Shown here piece by piece: positions 39,623 to 48,525 of a stretch of DNA of 64,000 bases (the first letter of the stretch is position 1; each line of letters starts with the position of its first letter). The position numbers were made by a program, and so were the translations under genes. Below the pieces are notes generated by a model. It worked only from the letters and a program-made list of their open reading frames with translations. It made no database searches and had not been told where the DNA came from. Source of the DNA: Prototheca cutis (taxonomy: Eukaryota; Chlorophyta; Trebouxiophyceae; Chlorellales; Chlorellaceae); assembly GCA_002897115.2 (NCBI GenBank), contig BCIH01000005.1:1098683-1162682 (forward strand), in the 5' to 3' direction.

Positions 39623-39685
<63 letters not shown>

Positions 39686-40186
39686 ACCCATCCACACGCG
39701 CGTGCACAGAGCCCTCGTCTCCACACGTACAAGGGGAGTTGCTCATCCCATTCTATCACATGATCCACATGCTGTCGCACAGATGTGTTCTTCTGCAGCA
39801 GGCAGGCAGCGAGGGCTGGGGATCGGTGACCAACGGGGGCGTCCCAGCAAAGCAGTGGTCTGGCCCCGGCCACTCCCACCCGTGAGAGCACCAAAGGGGT
39901 TCGAGGGAGGGGACCGCCCATTCACCAGACCTTGATAATCCGTGAGCCTCCACGCAGCTCAACTGCGAAATGGGTACAACAGGCGAGCGTCAGCGCCGCG
40001 CACGCGGGCAGTCCGGGGCCCAGATCATGGTCTAGGTCGGTGCAGGGGAGGCCAGCCCGGCCCACCTCGTACGAAGCCTCGGTCGAAGCTGGAGTCCCAT
40101 ACGATTTCGTCCTCCTTGTTGTGGCCCGCCACCTCCAGCACCTTGACCACCAACCAGCCCTTTGGCGTCTCGCCCTCCACGGCCAT
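38749..40186 (-). CDS. Small C2-domain protein with C-terminal membrane anchor
   Basis: Six exons: 40066..40186, 39931..39962, 39727..39792, 39432..39525, 39039..39198 and 38749..38872, joining in phase to 198 residues. The first five encode one C2-like beta sandwich: WLVVKVLEVAGHN, GFVRVELRGGSRIIKK, VIEWDEQLPLYVLEG, ELRILLCKEA and FELYTAAGNEGGFVRIAVNY. C2 domains usually bind membranes or Ca2+; few of the Asp ligands are visible, so Ca2+ binding is doubtful. The last exon has a Lys/Arg/Glu linker, a hydrophobic segment (VPLLVVAAGLAVAASQLLL) and an RRH end, making it tail-anchored. Exon 2 is only 32 bases. Intron 3 holds a 62-base homopolymer. I do not know a named homologue. Confidence 0.65.
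39624..39685 (+). repeat. 62-base poly-C (poly-G on the gene strand) in C2 gene intron 3
   Basis: Uninterrupted C run on the plus strand; on the transcribed strand it is poly-G starting about 40 bases after the GTGTGG donor. Confidence 0.97.
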
Positions 40187-40954
40187 CAACGGCGCCCCGC
40201 TGGCACACACCAGCAGCCCCTTGTGTCGAGGTTGGCCTCGGACCGCAGCCTCTGTGGTATGAGCAATACCAAACGCGATGCTCGCCAAGCAATATTACCG
40301 GGTACATATGCTGTCAGCGATTGGGGCCTGTCCAGCAAGAGGCGTTGGATCGCGATGCTCGGGCCCGGTGGCCCGGATTAACGGCTCGAGAGAGGCACGG
40401 ATCTCCCAAATCCCTTTCAGGCCCTTCCGCGCAGCACCCCCTTGTATGACTGCACGATGATGTTTATTCCGCACCAAAGACCAGTCTGAGAACAGGGCGG
40501 GGCCAGAAAGGGGCGCGCTCGTGGGCAATCACCCTTCGACGTTCGGGGGCTGCGCAGCTGCGGAGGACGGGGCCACCAAACCGCGCGTGCAGGCCCTTGA
40601 AACGCCTGTCAACTCCAGAAATCAAGATAATGAAGCTATTTCGGGGATTGAGGATGCAAATGGGAGTTGTTGCTGTGCGAGTATGTGGGTTTCTCGCTCG
40701 GTGGCCCCTGGGCTTTTAAACGCGCCGGCGGCAAGCACCCTTAGGATTGGCAAGGGCCCGGGACATACACTGGTTGTGCCCCAGAGCAGGTGCTGTGCGG
40801 GCTGATTCCACAAGAAAATCTTGTCTTACACCTCCACATCATCATTCAATTGCCCATTGTTGCCAAGTCAAGGAAGTTACTGTGCGGACAGAGGCAGGTC
40901 AATCTAGGGATCAGGTTCAAGTTGAGCAACAGGCAACGTCATTGCCACCATGTT
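40187..40954. other. Intergenic region, no feature seen
   Basis: 768 bp upstream of the C2 gene start and downstream of the unresolved minus-strand locus. No recognisable gene. Confidence 0.35.
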
Positions 40955-42462
40955 CTAAGCCTCTGCAGCTGCGCCTGGCCTCCCTGCGGTCCTCTGCCTG
41001 TACTTCTGGTGATTGCGTTCCCGCCGTCCGTTCTTCCGCTTCTTGGATGATCTAGAGCCTGAGTTGACCAGCGCTTCAACCCAGAATCCTTCCTCTTCTA
41101 GCTGTGCCGCGTGCTTGTCGATGGTTGCCGGAGACCATGTGCTTACCCATCTTTGAGTGAGTGAATCGAAGAAGGTCATCCTTTGCTGCATGTGGGTCCT
41201 CCAGCATATAGCGCCGCACCAGGCCGTCGATGACAGAGTCTTCCAGGGAGTGGCGAGCGGGCGGGGTTGAAGGGCCAGCATCCTCCCCACTTGGAGGTGC
41301 CGCGTTCGGGGTCAGCGAGACCAGCTGGCTATCCACTGCAGCCTGCTGGGATCTGGCACCGTGGATGTCCCGTGGTAGATCCTGCTCAGCACAGCAAGGG
41401 TTGGGCCGGCGCTGCCGCCTCCTGGCTCAGATCGGGCCCGCAGTCCACGTGCTGGGCTTTGTCATCAGGCTGAGCACCTGTGGTGGCTGGTGTTGGTTGA
41501 TGTCCACAGTCAAAACACCTTCTGATCCGCCTGCATTTAAGATGACCATGGGAACGGATAGTGCAGCCACTGCATCGGACTGGTCGACGCGGCGGCTGTT
41601 GCAGGGCCGGGGACAGCTCTCTACAGTCGGCACGGGGCCGCCCCCGCACAACACACTGCTGCCGTGTGAGCACGACCTCGAAGGGCTGCACCGGCGGCCG
41701 CCTGGGACGTGCACACCAGGGGTGGCATTGAGGTGGCCGAGCACGTGCAAGAGGCACGCCTGCACGATGCGGCGGGGGTCGGAAGAGAAGACACGCCCAG
41801 GTGGTACGCCGGCATCAAGCGCAACAGGTGCTCCAGGCCGGGGCGAGGACGGCGGACGTGGCGTCCCGCAGTCGACGGTGGCCCCCATCCAGCAGCAGCA
41901 CTGCACGCAACCCAAACAGCAGCACCGCCCGGTCGCCCCCAAGCGGGCGGCTGTCATCCTTCCAAAGTAGAAGCAGATACTGCGATGCAAGGCCGGGAGG
42001 GAGGCGTTGGCAAGCAGCGGTGAGGCACGACCAGAACGAAACCGGTGGAATCACATGGACACAGTTCGTCTCCGTGCTGCACACGATTTTCGGAGCCAGC
42101 CTAGATGCGAGGCTGCTTCAGATTGGATTGTGTGCTCGGCTGTCTATCTCTCCCACAAACACACACATACCTCGGGGGACGGGGTCCTGGTGGTGGCGCG
42201 CAGCAGTGCCGGGATATTGTTGGTGAGCTCTAGGCCGGCATCCCCGACATTCGCCGGGCCATTACCGGCGCTGCACTCTTCCTGCTCCTCTTCCAGGTTT
42301 ATGGGATCGGCGTCCGCGGTCTAAGAGGGCCCGGCCCTCGCGCACGGGACCGGGACGGGCATCAAACCCTAGCCTTGAGTTATCGCAGCCAGGCGAGACA
42401 GCATTCCGACGTCTCTTGGACGGTGTGCGGCGGCGGAAACCGAATGTAATGGATCCTTGCAT
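40955..42462 (-). CDS. Unresolved multi-exon gene, function unknown
   Basis: Several minus-strand segments look coding but I cannot join all in one frame. A likely exon at 42171..42320 (donor GTATGT) encodes an acidic stretch, INLEEEQEECSAGNG and LELTNNIPALLRATT. A start upstream at 42462 would give MQGSITFGFRRRTPSKRRRN, a basic, nuclear-localisation-like leader. Near the 3' end, 41147..41332 encodes SLEDSVIDGLVRRYMLEDP, and a frame ending at 40955 encodes QLEEEGFWVEALVN followed by a Lys/Arg-rich tail (SSKKRKNGRRERN). The middle (41430-42100) is readable in more than one frame. It may be a nuclear protein. No family was recognised, and exon borders are only rough. Transcript data would be needed to fix the model. 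Confidence 0.3.
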
Positions 42463-42650
42463 TGAATGTGCCTGCGCGATGCGGGTCTGGTAGCCAGAAC
42501 ATGCATCGTGCTCGGTTGCACGGTCCTCGAACGGGCTCCTAGCAAACCACATGGCTGGCGTCCGGTGCGATAGATCCGGGCATCGGACGGACTCCAGGCC
42601 AGCGTCGTGCGAGATACATGGCAGAACAATCTCCTGTTTCATTGTAAACT

Positions 42651-45600
42651 ATGGTGACGCGCAAAAGAAAGCGTCCAAGGGAGGAAGGCGGAGGGTGCGG
42701 GGCCGACTGCGGGTGTGCGAGTGCACGCCCCGCCTCAGCAGCTGCCGTGGCTGCANCCGCTCGTGCTGCAGGTGGCGGTGGTAAAGGCCCAGCCNCTGGC
42801 GGTTCCAACGGTGTCGACGGCTCAAGCCCGGGAGGTGTCGGCGGCTCAAGCCCGGGAGGTGGCGGCGGCGCGAGTCCGGGCCCGGACGACGGCCCTGTCG
42901 ACAGCGGCCCGGGCGAGGGCGGCCAACCAGGGCCCTCGTCGGCGCCCGGGGAGCCCTGCAACCCCCCCGACACGGTCGAGGAGGAAAGCGCGGACGGCAA
43001 GCACTTCACCATCAAGTGTCCGCTTGCGCACCACCTGCGGGCGAATGTGTGCTCCGCGNTCCTGGCTATCCTCAGCTGGAACGTGNAGTTCTGGACGGNC
43101 CNCATGCGCTTGGTGTCCNTGGTCACCNNCNNNTATGTGCTGCGGAAGCTCGAAGGTGGCGAGGTGCCGGCGCAGCTGACCAAAGAAGAGTTCAGGAAGG
43201 CACTGAGCTACCTGTGTGGGAAGAACCACTACGGCGACGAGGGGCCAGACAACGTGAATGTGGTGGGCGAGTTGGCCAAGTTCATTGGGAAGCATTATCG
43301 CTCGCGCGTGAGGCCGGCGGACCATCAGTCCCGGCAATGTGATCTCCAGGCAGCGCAGCTCTACCAGGCGTACACGAGGCACCTCAACACGCACAAGCGG
43401 TCGTCGGCACTGGGCCTCCTGGTTGCAAGCCTGGAAGCATGCGGGATGGGCGAAGATGACGCGAGGGGCATCGCGGAGCACACGTGGAACGACCTCGCGA
43501 CTGGCATCAGACGCAAAGTCCGTGGGACGGACGACCTGGCCCGGCGACGCGGCCAGCTCATCGCCAGGATCGCTCCCCGGGCGCTGGAGAACGCACTCGT
43601 TCAAGCTGCCGAGAAGGTTGGTCCCGGCTGGGAGGATGTTTTCGCCGACTTGGTTCCCGTCATCCGCCGGTGCGGCGCAGATGTGCCGTCGCCTGGAACC
43701 GTTCAAATGTCGTCTGACACGGATGCCGCCCAGGTGCGTGTTGTCTGCGTGGCCGCATGGCTCTCCGGCCTTTACGAGCTTGTTCTGCCACTGCGCGCAT
43801 TATGGCTTTGGGCAACGGGGAGCTGGCTTGGCACTGGGCTCAGCGCAGGCCATTCCCGCCCTCAAACAAGCCGTCCCGTCATTGCCGTCCCGTGCCTGCA
43901 GGTCGCCGCCGAGCCAGAAACACTCCAAATGGTGCCCAAGATGGTTGTGCCTAACGTGGCCCGCGCCGAGGTGTGGTGTTGTGGAGCCCATCAGGCTGTG
44001 CTTGGTTTTGCGGGCATGACTGTGGCGTGGGCAAGGCGTGATCGATGGGGTCCCCCGGGGGAGGGGGGATTCGCAGCGCAGAAGTGTGCCCCGCCCTTGG
44101 CATTCCAGTGCACGGCGACCCTGCCGCACAGCGTCAGCACGATCGCCGTCTCTCCCCCGCGCGACTGCTGCTTGACGCCCACTGCTCCCACCCGCAGGCC
44201 GGCCCAGACCAGGGCGAGGGGGCCGGACAAGCTGCCCAGCAGGCAACCTCAACGAGGTCTGGCAAGAAGAGGATCGGGGAGTGGCGGGGGGACGGCCACT
44301 TGCGCTGGCCGGCGGGCAAGGTGGAACGGGCCATGCCGCCCCGACTCGACATGCTGTCGACCCACGATCCGGATGGCGTGGTGCACCTGGCATACGAGCT
44401 GCTGGCGATCTTCAAGCGTTGCGGCGACAAAGGCCGGCCAGTGCAGCTGCCCAAGGCCGACTGGTGCGCGATCGTCCGCCCGATTGCCTCAGCGCTCATG
44501 TGGATCAGTACCGAGGCAGACAAGCTGCGCCTCCTGGCCACGGTTTCCAAGTTCATGTGGCAGACGAGGCGGTGGAAGCAGACGTTCACCGTGCTGCCNN
44601 TNTGCCGCNCNTCGGCNCGGCACATCATCCTGGACACACATGCCCTGTGGCTTCTCTGCCAGCAAGCGGGTATCGAGGTCGGCACGCGGGATGCCTTTAG
44701 GGCAGGAGGCCCGGAAAGCTGGCAGAGACTGTTCGACTTTCCCAGCACGTGGTTCGCGTCGGACCGATGCGGCCGGGCCCGCAGGCGCAAGAGGTTTGTG
44801 GGGTATGCTACGACCGNCGGCGTGGCACTGAGCTTGGCCTTGGAGCNCGNNGGGAGCGGCAGCGACGGGGAGCAAGGCGGCCGCGTTCCCTGGCACGTCG
44901 CCAAGAAGGCCCGGAGGCGGGCCGCCGTGAAGGAGGCCAAGCGGGCCTCGTGGGATGCCAAGCAGGCCGCNAAGAAAGCCCAGGCAGCCNNNAAGAAAGC
45001 CAAGCAGNNGGNNNACAGGGAGCATGCGAAGAAGGTGCTGGGNGGCGGCGGCTGCTCGCTGGGCATCGACCCCGGCCGCAAGGTCATCCTGACCTGCAAC
45101 TACGGCGANGNGAAGGNCGACACCGTGTGCGTGACTACGAAGGAGTACCGCCACAATGCGCACTTCAATAAGAACCGCGACACCCACATGAGGCTCCTGC
45201 GGGAGAACAAGGACCTGTGGGCCGTCGTGGGGAACGTGCCGTGGCTGGCGACTGGGCGCGCGCAGGACGTGTGCGACCTCATCGACTACATGTTTCAACC
45301 GTTTGACAGCGAGCGCACGCGTTTCGACGCCCTGCTCGACGTCACCTGCAGCTACAAATGGAGGAAGGGCGCGTTTGATGTGCACGTGATGAGGTACATG
45401 GCCATGGACAAATCCATCAAGGATGTCATTGCCTGCACAGGGCACCAGCCCAGCAGGATTGTCGTGTTCATGGGCAATGCCAGCTTCAGGCACAACTCAC
45501 CCGGTCATCCTCNNNNNNNNNNNNNNNNNNNNNNNNNNNNNNNNNNNNNNNNNNNNNNNNNNNNNNNNNNNNNNNNNNNNNNNNNNNNNNNNNNNNNNNN

Positions 45601-46794
45601 NNNNNNNNNNNNGTCGCCAAGAAGGCCCGGAGGCGGGCCGCCGTGAAGGAGGCCAAGCGGGCCTCGTGGGATGCCAAGCAGGCCGCAAAGAAAGCCCAGG
45701 CAGCCGTGAAGAAAGCCAAGCAGAAGGCATACAGGGAGCATGCGAAGAAGGTGCTGGGCGGCGGCGGCTGCTCGCTGGGCATCGACCCCGGCCGCAAGGT
45801 CATCCTGACCTGCAACTACGGCGACGGGAAGGACGACACCGTGTGCGTGACTACGAAGGAGTACCGCCACAATGCGCACTTCAATAAGAACCGCGACACC
45901 CACATGAGGCTCCTGCGGGAGAACAAGGACCTGTGGGCCGTCGTGGAGAATGTGCCGTGGCTGGCGACTGGGCGCGCGCAGGACGTGTGCGACCTCATCG
46001 ACTACATGTTTCAACCGTTTGACAGCGAGCGCACGCGTTTCGACGCCCTGCTCGACGTCACCTGCAGCTACAAATGGAGGAAGGGCGCGTTTGATGTGCA
46101 CGTGATGAGGTACATGGCCATGGACAAATCCATCAAGGATGTCATTGCCTGCACAGGGCACCAGCCCAGCAGGATTGTCGTGTTCATGGGCAATGCCAGC
46201 TTCAGGCACAACTCACCCGGTCATCCTCTGAGCCTGGGGTGGCGCCGCTGGGCCAAGCGCATGCGGGAGGCGCACGGACTGTTGGTGATAGAGGTCGACG
46301 AGTTCCGCACGTCGCAGGCGCGCGCTGGGGTGGTTGCGCACGTGTGTGGGAGTGTCTTGTGGGTGCCGGGTTGGATGGGTGTGGGCAGTGGGACGGGCGA
46401 GCAGGTGCCTGGGGAGGTTGGAGCAGGGCAGGCGCACGTGCGCACACAGTGTCCACGGACTGCCGGTCACACCGATCCCAAACGCGCAACACCGCAGATC
46501 TGTTCGGCGTGCGAGGCGCATATGCGCCTGGGTGGATGCAGCACCGCCCGGAACCAGTACGCCATCCTCGAATGCCAGAGTTGTGGCATGGTGTGGAACC
46601 GCGACGTCAACGCCGCGCGCAACATCCGCCGCCTGGGAGAGAGACTGGTCCTGACCGGCAAAAGGCCGCCCCCTTTTGATCGCAAAACCAAGCCAGCCCC
46701 CCTTGCATGTCCCCTGCCTCCCAGGCGCTCCACCTTGTATGATTTCATCACCAAGATACTCCGCTGGCTTTGGCCAGCGGAACAGCACCATTGA
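42651..46794 (+). CDS. Fanzor: eukaryotic TnpB-like RNA-guided endonuclease
   Basis: Exons 42651..43733, 44198 to about 46317 (interrupted by a gap and a duplicated block) and 46450..46794. With the duplicate counted once, the frame closes at about 943 residues. The start has a basic nuclear-localisation-like patch (TRKRKRPREE), then a Gly/Pro/Ser spacer with SSPGG repeats, and a long helical N-terminal half. The nuclease half has RuvC-I GIDPGRKVILT (Asp about 652), the Fanzor block VVFMGNASF, then VIEVDEFRTSQ, a zinc ribbon with CSAC and CQSC pairs, and RuvC-III NRDVNAARNI (Asp about 881), ending in RPPPFDRKT as other Fanzors do. Fanzors use an RNA encoded at the 3' end of the gene to guide DNA cutting. 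Many ambiguous bases leave single residues unread. The catalytic set appears intact. Confidence 0.88.
44897..45512 (+). repeat. Direct repeat, first copy (Fanzor exon 2), probable assembly artefact
   Basis: A 616-bp block ending flush at the N gap and repeated at 45613..46228, which begins flush after the gap. This copy contains most of the ambiguous bases. The copies differ clearly at two bases around 45229-45235 (GGGAACGTG versus GAGAATGTG), changing Gly to Glu. Confidence 0.95.
45513..45612. other. 100-N assembly gap inside Fanzor gene
   Basis: A run of exactly 100 Ns flanked by two copies of the same 616-bp block. Skipping gap plus second copy restores a continuous reading frame. Confidence 0.98.
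45613..46228 (+). repeat. Direct repeat, second copy (Fanzor exon 2)
   Basis: Matches 44897..45512 with Ns resolved, and runs into the unique 3' part of the Fanzor gene. It is therefore the better version of the RuvC-I region. Confidence 0.95.
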
Positions 46795-47014
46795 ACACGT
46801 GCTGTGAGGCCAGTTTTTCCTGGATTACCCTCGCGGATCTCTCGTGGGGTGCGCCCCCAGGTTCTCTGGGATCGTACCCCACCCCCCGGGATTGGAGTTG
46901 TTTGTCGCGGGCCACGCATGGCCATGAACACCTTTAGCTTCCAAGCACAGATGCACAATACATGCATGCACTATAATTTCTTATTAGTTAGTTGGGAATA
47001 TTCCGGGCGAAGGA
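46795..47014 (+). promoter_or_regulatory. Fanzor 3' flank (candidate guide-RNA region) and HCCS promoter
   Basis: Only 220 bp separate the Fanzor stop from the next ATG. In studied Fanzors the guide RNA scaffold overlaps the 3' end of the gene and flank. A GC hairpin (GGGGTGCGCCCC, 46846-46857) lies here. The guide-RNA role is inference. The right part is AT-richer and probably the HCCS promoter. Confidence 0.3.
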
Positions 47015-48525
47015 ATGGGGGCTGGGCAGAGCAAGGACAACCATGCCGTGGGTGCCAACGGGGCCTCGGAGCTGAGCACTAGCGAGCAGTCTTCGTGCCC
47101 CGTGCCGGAGTCTGTGCGGGGCAAGGCGGTGTACAATGTGTACAACCAGCGCATAGACGGCCTGCCGGCGCCAAAGATCGACATCCTGGACCCCAGTAAC
47201 AACATGCCGGCAGAGCCCAACCAGCAACCAGCCCCAGGCCAGAAGAAACTGCTGTCCACGGAACGGGTGGTCTCAAACATCCCAAAGGGCAACACTGAAG
47301 GCACATGGGTGTACCCCTCGCCGCAGATGTTCTATAACGGTGCGAGAGTGCCCGTGGGACTAGGCACATGATCTGGACAGAGCGTGGGGGTGGAGCAGCG
47401 GAGTGAGGACCTGCATATGTGCTGCTCGACCCTTACTACTTTGGTGGGGCTGCAGGGTCCCTGCATGAATCGACCCCTGCTTCCGTGTGTCAAAGCCTCC
47501 GCGACAAACCACCTCATACACATTGTCGCCTGCTGCAGCACTCAAGCGCAAGGGCAAGGGGGATGACGTAACAGAGGACGACATGGACTCGGTGATCCTG
47601 GCACACAACAGCATGAACGAGCTGACATGGGGCCACGTCCTGGTCTGGGAATCGCTGCACCGTGACACATGCTGCCAGCCCTCACTGATGCGCTTTAGAG
47701 GCCGGCCTGACGACCTCAGGCAGGGTTGTGCTGTACTTGATCTTCTTTTCTTTTTTCTTTTTTTTTTTTTTGGGGGGGGGGGGGGGGGACACGAGGGAAA
47801 CCCCTCCCAACGTACGGAACGGATGGGGCCTCCGACAGAGCATCGGGCAGCGTCTTGCAACCTGTGTTAGTGATGGAAGGCTTGCCATGGGGTGGACCTG
47901 CGTTGGGCCTGTGCTGAGCAGGGTGTGCCTGCTGCAGGGTCGCCATGTGCAAAGGCGTCCTCCAGCCAACGCCGTGGTACTACCCCATCCTGCAGTCCCA
48001 TTGCCCGGATGCGGTCTTGGTTTGGAGGCCAGCTGCCGTTTGATCGGCACGACTGGTACATTGATCGCTGCGGCAAGGAAGTCCGTTATGTCATCGATTT
48101 TTACTTCCACGATGAGCTGGCCGGTATGGTTTTTTTTCTGTGGTGGAGGTGTTGTTCAGGGGTGTTGACACGCAGGTGGGTGGGTGGGTGTGTGGGGGGG
48201 GTGGCTGGAGGGGCAGCACAGGCTGCTGTCACGCATGGAGCAGTGCAGACCAGCAGTTTTGGGGGGGCGGAACTGCTACGTGTACAGCGGTCACATTCCA
48301 TGGCTCGGTGCGACATTTGGCCACCCGAATCTCCCTGGGAACCCTGCAGGCAGACCCGAGGCCTTTGAGCTCAATGTGCGGCCGGCACTGGACTCGTTCG
48401 AGGCGGCGCTGGACCGGGCAAAGATGCAGATCTACACCACGTTTGCAAAATACGGTCTGCCCTGCCCCGTGACGGGTCATGCCGGCACCATTGGCGTGGC
48501 TGCTGTTGAGGCGGACAAGAACTGA
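47015..48525 (+). CDS. HCCS: Holocytochrome c synthase (cytochrome c heme lyase)
   Basis: Four exons, 47015..47339, 47539..47719, 47996..48123 and 48350..48525, join in phase to 269 residues, like the human enzyme. HCCS attaches heme to the CXXCH motif of cytochrome c in the mitochondrial intermembrane space. Matching stretches are [33 protein letters not shown], the heme-contacting region [20 protein letters not shown] with its catalytic His (FDRHDW), EVRYVIDFY and [14 protein letters not shown] dipeptide near the N-terminus (SSCPVPE) resembles the heme-regulatory motifs of the family. There is no cleavable presequence, as expected. Intron 2 closes in phase only with a GC donor (CAG/GCAGGG at 47720) and contains a T-run and G-run. 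Confidence 0.93.
47750..47788 (+). repeat. T-run followed by poly-G in HCCS intron 2
   Basis: A T-rich stretch and about 17 G lie some 50 bases after the intron's GC donor. Confidence 0.9.

Follow-up and report, generated by a model that had tools for sequence, protein, structure and literature searches.

A putative active Fanzor1 element and its deletion derivatives in the genome of the colourless green alga Prototheca cutis

The nearest published anatomy to the element described here is that of CRe-1, CRe-2 and CRe-3 of Chlamydomonas reinhardtii, reported by Bao and Jurka 2013 (PMC3627910) as Fanzor1 elements that share ends with Helitrons, with the 3' end intact, the 5' end ragged or truncated, deletions in the interior and duplications of 7–19 bp after a fixed tetranucleotide. 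The same source describes fungal Fanzor1 elements of the MuDR type (ROr-4, PBl-3 and MCi-4) with 9-bp duplications and MuDR-like inverted repeats. In Spizellomyces punctatus, SpuFz1 is represented by Spu-1 and 'ghost' loci with 30-nt inverted repeats plus CA, and its target-adjacent motif (TAM) is given as CATA (PMC10432273; 8gkh). The commonest repeat of Auxenochlorella UTEX 250-A is described as an uncharacterised Fanzor-coding element, and this alga is reported to have a phased diploid assembly (PMC12633428). Here, we analyzed a 64,000-bp stretch of contig BCIH01000005.1 (contig C5; hereafter the window) of Prototheca cutis, in which positions 42651–46794 are one Fanzor1 gene lying within a dispersed repeat. 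Fanzors occur in eukaryotes and are related to the CRISPR nucleases. Fanzor1 elements are a kind already known, of which this is a new example. With a probability of roughly two in three, we read it as an active DNA element in which RNA from the right end guides the cutting of empty sites, so that the element is retained.

Like the CRe elements, which are described as non-autonomous, the P. cutis element is a green-algal, multi-exon Fanzor1 element with a fixed 3' end, a ragged 5' end, internal deletions and variable duplications after a short motif. As published, the CRe elements differ from it in their motif (TTTT or T-rich, whereas in P. cutis it is T/CG, the slash marking the duplication start, in part of the copies), in their duplications of 7–19 bp or longer (7–12 bp in P. 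cutis) and in their Helitron-shared ends, none of which was identified in P. cutis (PMC3627910); P. cutis further stands apart in having two predominant deletion forms, each with its own fixed junction. It has in common with ROr-4, PBl-3 and MCi-4 that the element is without a transposase gene, and their 9-bp duplications fall beside its 7–12 bp; unlike them, it shows just a weak 17-bp terminal resemblance by eye and no clear inverted repeats (PMC3627910). With SpuFz1 it shares the RuvC fold, predicted in the case of P. cutis, and the short ghost copies of S. punctatus are reported to keep a region resembling that from stop codon to right end, the site of the omega RNA; in contrast to P. cutis, RNA and cleavage were experimentally shown for SpuFz1 (PMC10432273). 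The Auxenochlorella repeat, Fanzor-coding and from a related genus, is likened to the P. cutis element by description only (PMC12633428). In the open-licence literature, this preprint was the only item found on Fanzor, or on transposon and TnpB, together with Prototheca, and no description was found there of the P. cutis member, its ends, its site motif or its deletion forms.

An earlier sequence-only reading had taken the interval for a full-length and apparently intact spliced gene. As assembled, the gene is split by a scaffold gap of 100 N, and 44897–45512 and 45613–46228 are one 616-bp sequence written twice (601/616 identical, with 13 of the 15 differences being N's in the first writing). 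Since these near-identical writings abut the gap exactly, one on each side, the duplication is an unmerged overlap of two contig ends and thus an assembly artefact. A biological duplication was rejected, as the sequence is present once in the six other copies spanning the region, in which both window segments map to a single stretch. Outside the overlap, there are 17 N runs (22 bases), all in exons 1 and 2. With the overlap counted once, the element measures about 5.8 kb and the exons (42651–43733, 44198–44896 plus 45613–46317, and 46498–46794) join into a three-exon model of 927 codons with zero stops. The claim of an intact copy stands in this form, that is, after allowing for the overlap and the N's; the assembled interval is not a single contiguous gene.

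The predicted splice sites are conserved among the copies. Both GT and AG of intron 1 are retained in the copies holding them. Intron 2 is most likely of the GC-AG type with its donor after 46317, because CAG/GC (slash, splice junction) was found in 17/17 copies read there and this donor restores the RTS-x-x-C spacing, with two residues from RTS to the first zinc Cys as in relatives; the AG acceptor is absent in 2/17 copies, both of the deleted M form described below. A GT donor at 46330, 12 bp downstream, was rejected, since it is missing in several copies and breaks the RTS-x-x-C spacing. The features of the element and its gene are as follows:

40378–46885, + strand: Fanzor1 element as assembled, by similarity limits among copies (left boundary good to about 30 bp)
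42651–43733, + strand: exon 1, with the basic N-terminus MVTRKRKRPREE (gene model, copies)
43734–44197, + strand: intron 1, GT-AG (splice sites kept in copies holding them)
44198–44896, + strand: exon 2, first part; TDG codons at 44813–44821, the middle base of the D codon being N
44897–45512, + strand: contig overlap, first writing, 616 bp, artefact (single in six spanning copies)
45513–45612, no strand: scaffold gap, 100 N
45613–46317, + strand: exon 2, second part, from the second overlap writing onward
45784–45786, + strand: RuvC-I Asp codon, in GIDPG (exon 2, second part)
46300–46302, + strand: displaced Glu codon, in DEFRTSQ (exon 2, second part)
46318–46497, + strand: intron 2, probably GC-AG (donor conservation, RTS spacing)
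46498–46794, + strand: exon 3, zinc ribbon CSAC..CQSC, stop codon 46792–46794
46603–46605, + strand: RuvC-III Asp codon, in NRDVNAA (exon 3)

Profile, motif and fold evidence are concordant and support the assignment of the gene to Fanzor, as the sequence-only reading had proposed, and specifically to Fanzor1. Firstly, of the checks suggested with that reading, the profile search returned Cas12f1-like TNB (PF07282, 6.3e-15) as the sole Pfam match, in support of the zinc ribbon and the RuvC-III Asp. Secondly, Fanzors are distinguished by a catalytic Glu moved to a site just before the zinc ribbon, and Fanzor1 by a TDG motif in the WED domain (PMC10711439). The displaced Glu is present in DEFRTSQICSAC, just before the zinc ribbon, and E824 is invariant, as are D652 and P653, in an alignment of the window protein with four relatives (A4, five rows); TDG is read in 6/6 other copies, the window D codon containing an N. 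Both RuvC aspartates recognised earlier were recovered, GIDPG (the DPG of RuvC-I) in the window and in 6/6 other copies read, and the NRD of RuvC-III in 17/17, once as NRDIN and once as NRDAN. The basic N-terminal patch also recurs, the first 12 residues being identical in the 6/6 other copies holding them. Thirdly, Foldseek returned SpuFz and PpFz as the top five matches of the predicted model of the RuvC/nuclease half. Structure prediction thus placed the RuvC part nearest SpuFz/PpFz, with coverage limited to the nuclease half and at modest confidence: the predicted local distance difference test (pLDDT) score is 57 overall, 70–88 in residues 1–60, 131–190 and 211–230, single blocks excepted, and 52–65 between these better regions.

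In the protein database, the full model retrieved two relatives and the RuvC part two more; a search with the five-row alignment gave no further relatives among 8000 candidates scored, and five pattern matches in viral contigs yielded zero confirmed relatives. A structure model of relative P0003 was unusable (pLDDT 36.5). The PDB and Pfam sequence matches also include bacterial TnpB and Cas12f, as would be the case for a TnpB or Cas12f-like gene from a bacterial contaminant. This explanation has next to no chance of being correct and is already contradicted by the introns with conserved splice sites, by the displaced Glu together with TDG, by a predicted fold nearest to Fanzor1, by dozens of copies across the genome scaffolds and by a cytochrome haem-lyase gene about 130 bp away, the cytochrome haem-lyase family being eukaryotic.

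The host is P. cutis, a non-photosynthetic, human-associated green-algal species, and the locus is therefore algal nuclear, as had been stated from the letters. The whole-genome searches covered 23 contigs (19.89 Mb) of P. cutis JCM 15793 (GCA_002897115.2). Zero members of the light-harvesting protein family were found in them, with the control positive in 1/14 genomes, and this fits a colourless alga. A 337-aa query gave 134 matches in the genome, merged into 112 loci, with 84 belonging to this family and 28 to a second one; both counts are lower bounds, because only the best candidates are scored. A search for related copies had been suggested with the sequence-only reading, which had itself missed the family of deletion forms, the ends of the element and the duplicated target sites found here. 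The Fanzor1 copies are dispersed over the scaffolds, in dozens, and differ from the window by about 5–10% across the exons and left part. Near-complete copies lie at C6:529148 and C8:787003; those at C12:580614, C1:531681 and C3:1014408 are long with blocks missing, and others are partial.

Many of the copies fall into two recurrent deletion forms with fixed junctions. In the M form, left position 40701 is joined to right position 46039 in 8/8 copies. In the S form, the left part up to 41883–41932 (at 41932 in 18/20) is joined to 46538–46540 in all 20 copies fetched, and this junction coincides with a 13–14 bp direct repeat of the long form, GCAGCACCGCCCGG. Both forms continue into the right end, with L072, L075 and L022 as exceptions (cut short or with the other right-end type). 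The corresponding features of the window are:

40378–40427, + strand: left end, of a length that varies between copies (copy comparison)
41919–41932, + strand: direct repeat GCAGCACCGCCCGG, 13–14 bp, left partner; joint of the short copies (overlap of two aligned parts)
46538–46551, + strand: direct repeat, right partner, where the short copies restart
46789–46885, + strand: candidate guide-RNA scaffold, structured right end (z -4.86 for 46700–46886)
46844–46882, + strand: terminal hairpin GTGGGGTGCG..CGTACCCCAC, element right end (folding, pairing across copies)

The second Fanzor family of this genome shows about 43–57% identity to the first and comprises, by our grouping, 28 loci (e.g., L018, L024, L028 and L032), mostly as C-terminal matches. 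Its ends were not found from the four loci compared.

Eight copies, long or partial and not independent of one another, together show one stop relative to the window, where about 24 were expected under the observed substitution spectrum (4.0, 3.9, 3.6, 3.8, 2.7, 2.5, 2.2 and 1.7 per copy). The ratio of nonsynonymous to synonymous substitution rates (dN/dS) was 0.31 in the RuvC part, 45613–46317, where a crude event count gave 0 frame-breaking indels in the five copies with nearly all of this part and in two with about 50 codons of it (it is absent from the eighth); in exon 1, the same count recorded some events too, mostly compensating within a short repeat. By these sequence comparisons the Fanzor1 frame is under selection, and we infer a working system. 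Six open reading frames in the left 2.2 kb were rejected as genes because their frames break among copies, with frame-breaking indels and stops in most of them; no second protein was recognised in the element, these six frames being judged by their conservation among copies.

Most copies share one right end, terminating in ..TCGTACCCCACC (the search pattern fits 48 of the 57 right ends retrieved), and the left end is ragged and varies across about 45 bp. Both ends were readable in 32 of 39 copies, of which 16 carry a target duplication of at least 8/9 (1.0 expected from mismatched pairs) and 6 a perfect one of 9/9 (0.03 expected). In 17 confident duplications (7–12 bp matched, up to 1 mismatch), the start is exactly CG in 10, with T preceding 7 of these; in 4 more, CG lies somewhere in bases one to four, and the remaining 3 lack CG at the start. 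In the flank background, CG accounts for 7.3% and TCG for 1.2% (binomial p 5e-8 and 7e-10, respectively). Since the way in which the start of a duplication is chosen can create a bias towards C as its first base, an independent right-flank test was added, in which G came first after the terminal C run in 28/44 copies vs. 35% in the background (p 1e-4). The window copy's own duplication is weak (7/9), and perfect duplications of 8–11 bp are retained in the long copies C1:531681, C3:1014408 and C12:580614. The predicted TAM ends in T or TCG.

The right end is also the probable scaffold of a guide RNA (omega RNA or reRNA), a candidate role put forward from folding and from comparison with Fanzors tested in other species, whose guide RNA derives from this 3'/right-end position (PMC10711439, PMC10432273). 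Positions 46700–46886 fold at -78 kcal/mol, shuffled sequences averaging -55.3 (z -4.86), and 0/200 shuffles were as stable. In 34 type I right ends (alignment A1), 98.1% of the cells are paired, compared to 26–54% in slid controls, and 4 pairs changed on both sides, a number reached in 0/500 shuffles, with 0–1 in slid controls. Pairing reached 94.4% in 15 second-type right ends with an extra stem (A2), and the hairpin across the stop codon is paired in 92.9% of the cells in 58 copies (A3). In the S copies, divergence over 46788–46862 is 0.039–0.079 per 25-bp bin, below most of the 31 left windows (0.072–0.233); the last right-end bin diverges by 0.125, and the coding-derived bins at 46538–46612 are equally low (0.064–0.079). 

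The second-type right end was found in L075, most of L079–L097, L002 and L029, and in both the S and the M deletion form. A modular stem is inserted in it (GGCGCC..GGGCGC, with CTCTCC..GGAGAG inside); the inner hairpin is absent in 3/15, and in 2/15 the terminal hairpin is without its inner part. A perfect 8-bp hairpin lies at 46761–46780 of the window, among the final codons of exon 3, and is interrupted by a mismatch in most other copies.

In the active element that we propose, the Fanzor1 gene would be transcribed and spliced, and the protein imported into the nucleus. The right end (about 46789–46882) would be transcribed as an omega RNA/reRNA scaffold continuing into the flanking host DNA, each copy thus yielding a guide against its own insertion site. 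The Fanzor–RNA complex would then cut insertion-free alleles beside the site motif, the predicted TAM, and repair of the cut allele would copy the element back, preventing its loss. For integration at new sites, the element would depend on an outside transposase or comparable machinery, since no coding sequence apart from the Fanzor1 gene was recognised in it. Having retained both ends and the RNA region on the right, the deleted copies would be non-autonomous elements that could supply their own guides to Fanzor from the few long copies. The fixed right end vs. the ragged left end, and the retention of the right-end region in the deletion forms, speak in support of this proposal.

Several observations weigh against it. 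The best PDB sequence match is mimivirus L79, titled Fanzor2 (2.9e-5), in the zinc-ribbon part alone, with PpFz1 at 0.059. Covariation is thin, since 3 of the 4 covarying pairs in A1 come from one row, L062, which can be aligned alternatively; in A2, 2 pairs changed on both sides, a number reached in 19/500 shuffles and no higher than the 1–3 of slid controls; and in the 58 copies of A3, covariation above shuffles was absent for both hairpins, of which the one within the final exon 3 codons, paired in 74.2% of the cells, was rejected as a family feature. Rfam gave zero matches in 40300–47100. Outside the RuvC part, dN/dS rises to 0.49 in exon 1, 0.63 in earlier exon 2 and 0.48 in exon 3. Besides the window, only C6:529148 is free of a stop and of a net frame shift in all three exons: C8:787003 carries the single stop, a 1-bp deletion affects exon 1 of both C1:531681 and C6:1370767 as well as exon 3 of C6:1236836, the RuvC part of C2:2200363 is short of 2 bp, and the frames of C12:580614 and C3:1014408 are sound where present, with parts of exon 1 missing. 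Further, the assembly was built from short reads, HiSeq 2500 reads being reported to give 650 contigs and 46 scaffolds with a total of 20.03 Mb, a longest scaffold of 2,465,851 bp (C1) and a scaffold N50 of 1,409,608 bp (C6) (PMC11302234). Lastly, the insertion motif could mirror an integrating enzyme alone.

Taken by themselves, the damaged copies would agree with a dead Fanzor1 family, i.e., relics of former activity seen through a short-read assembly, in which neither a guide RNA nor cutting would exist today. This would be in line with the 5–10% divergence of the copies, with the 16/32 copies that lack a clear target duplication, and with a single intact copy over all exons among the eight long or partial ones, a small indel breaking the frame in four of them and a stop being present in one. 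We regard a dead family as rather unlikely: stops are far fewer than the neutral expectation, the perfect duplications of three long copies are consistent with insertion later than their divergence, and part of the indels may stem from assembly errors in multi-copy sequence.

The motif and the structured right end could instead belong to an integrating enzyme supplied in trans (Helitron2-like or another transposase), with Fanzor as a passenger and its RNA, if any, made elsewhere. CRe-1 to CRe-3 of Chlamydomonas, with their Helitron ends, show much the same pattern in the published account (PMC3627910), and the terminal hairpin is compatible with a role at the DNA level. Nonetheless, we hold this explanation to be unlikely, as guide RNAs of Fanzors from other species arise at this same place (PMC10711439, PMC10432273) and a Helitron-type protein was not found, though the search controls were silent. 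MULE (PF10551) gave 0 matches in the P. cutis genome, with controls positive in 3/14 prokaryote genomes; hAT, Helitron (PF14214) and KDZ also gave 0, with controls silent in all 14, and these zeros therefore say nothing on absence.

An extension of the active-element proposal is a multi-guide network, in which the few long copies make Fanzor and scores of deleted copies each guide it to their own site. We consider this doubtful. If it were true, RNA-guided cutting and copy-back would maintain the family and shuffle its sequence, which would account for the loss of linkage, the right-end retention in the deletion forms and the unseen transposase. Linkage was analyzed in 19 of the 20 short copies L059–L078, over the part aligned to window 40790–41880. 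For shared variants, r2 was 0.45 at up to 3 bp and had dropped to the permuted level of 0.06 at distances above 20 bp, and the fraction of four-gamete pairs within 10 columns was 0.48 vs. 0.88 permuted. Recombination-free simulated trees did not reproduce the short-range decay; these trees are star-like, however, and their long-range r2 was almost as low (0.08–0.09 vs. 0.06). Shared tracts exceeded the permuted maxima in 9/171 pairs, and in 0/171 once the sites had been thinned to one per 8 bp. The correlation between left and right blocks was low (Mantel r 0.10, p 0.13), and a star-like burst would give the same. The linkage decay and the four-gamete clustering suggest that the short copies may be mosaic via gene conversion or template switching, with the short-read assembly as a caveat.

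For an active element, the predictions on guide RNA and target motif are directly testable. With few long copies and dozens of relatives carrying the right end in a 20-Mb genome, and with that end defined and a target motif predicted, P. cutis is a compact setting in which to ask whether one nuclease uses many natural guides. Its Fanzor1, a large algal protein encoded by a gene with introns and having a predicted TAM, is also suited to biochemical tests.

With regard to its surroundings, the element is followed by a cytochrome c haem lyase gene (window 47015–48500; PF01265, 7e-18), which starts about 130 bp downstream of the right end; the element therefore occupies the upstream region of this gene. 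A short tandem repeat at window 39623–39699 resembles repeats near the short copies L064, L065 and L075. Elsewhere in the window, two diverged direct-repeat pairs (21796–22050/25123–25377 and 20252–20404/23851–24003) show 75–76% identity at a spacing of about 3.3–3.6 kb and are unrelated to Fanzor.

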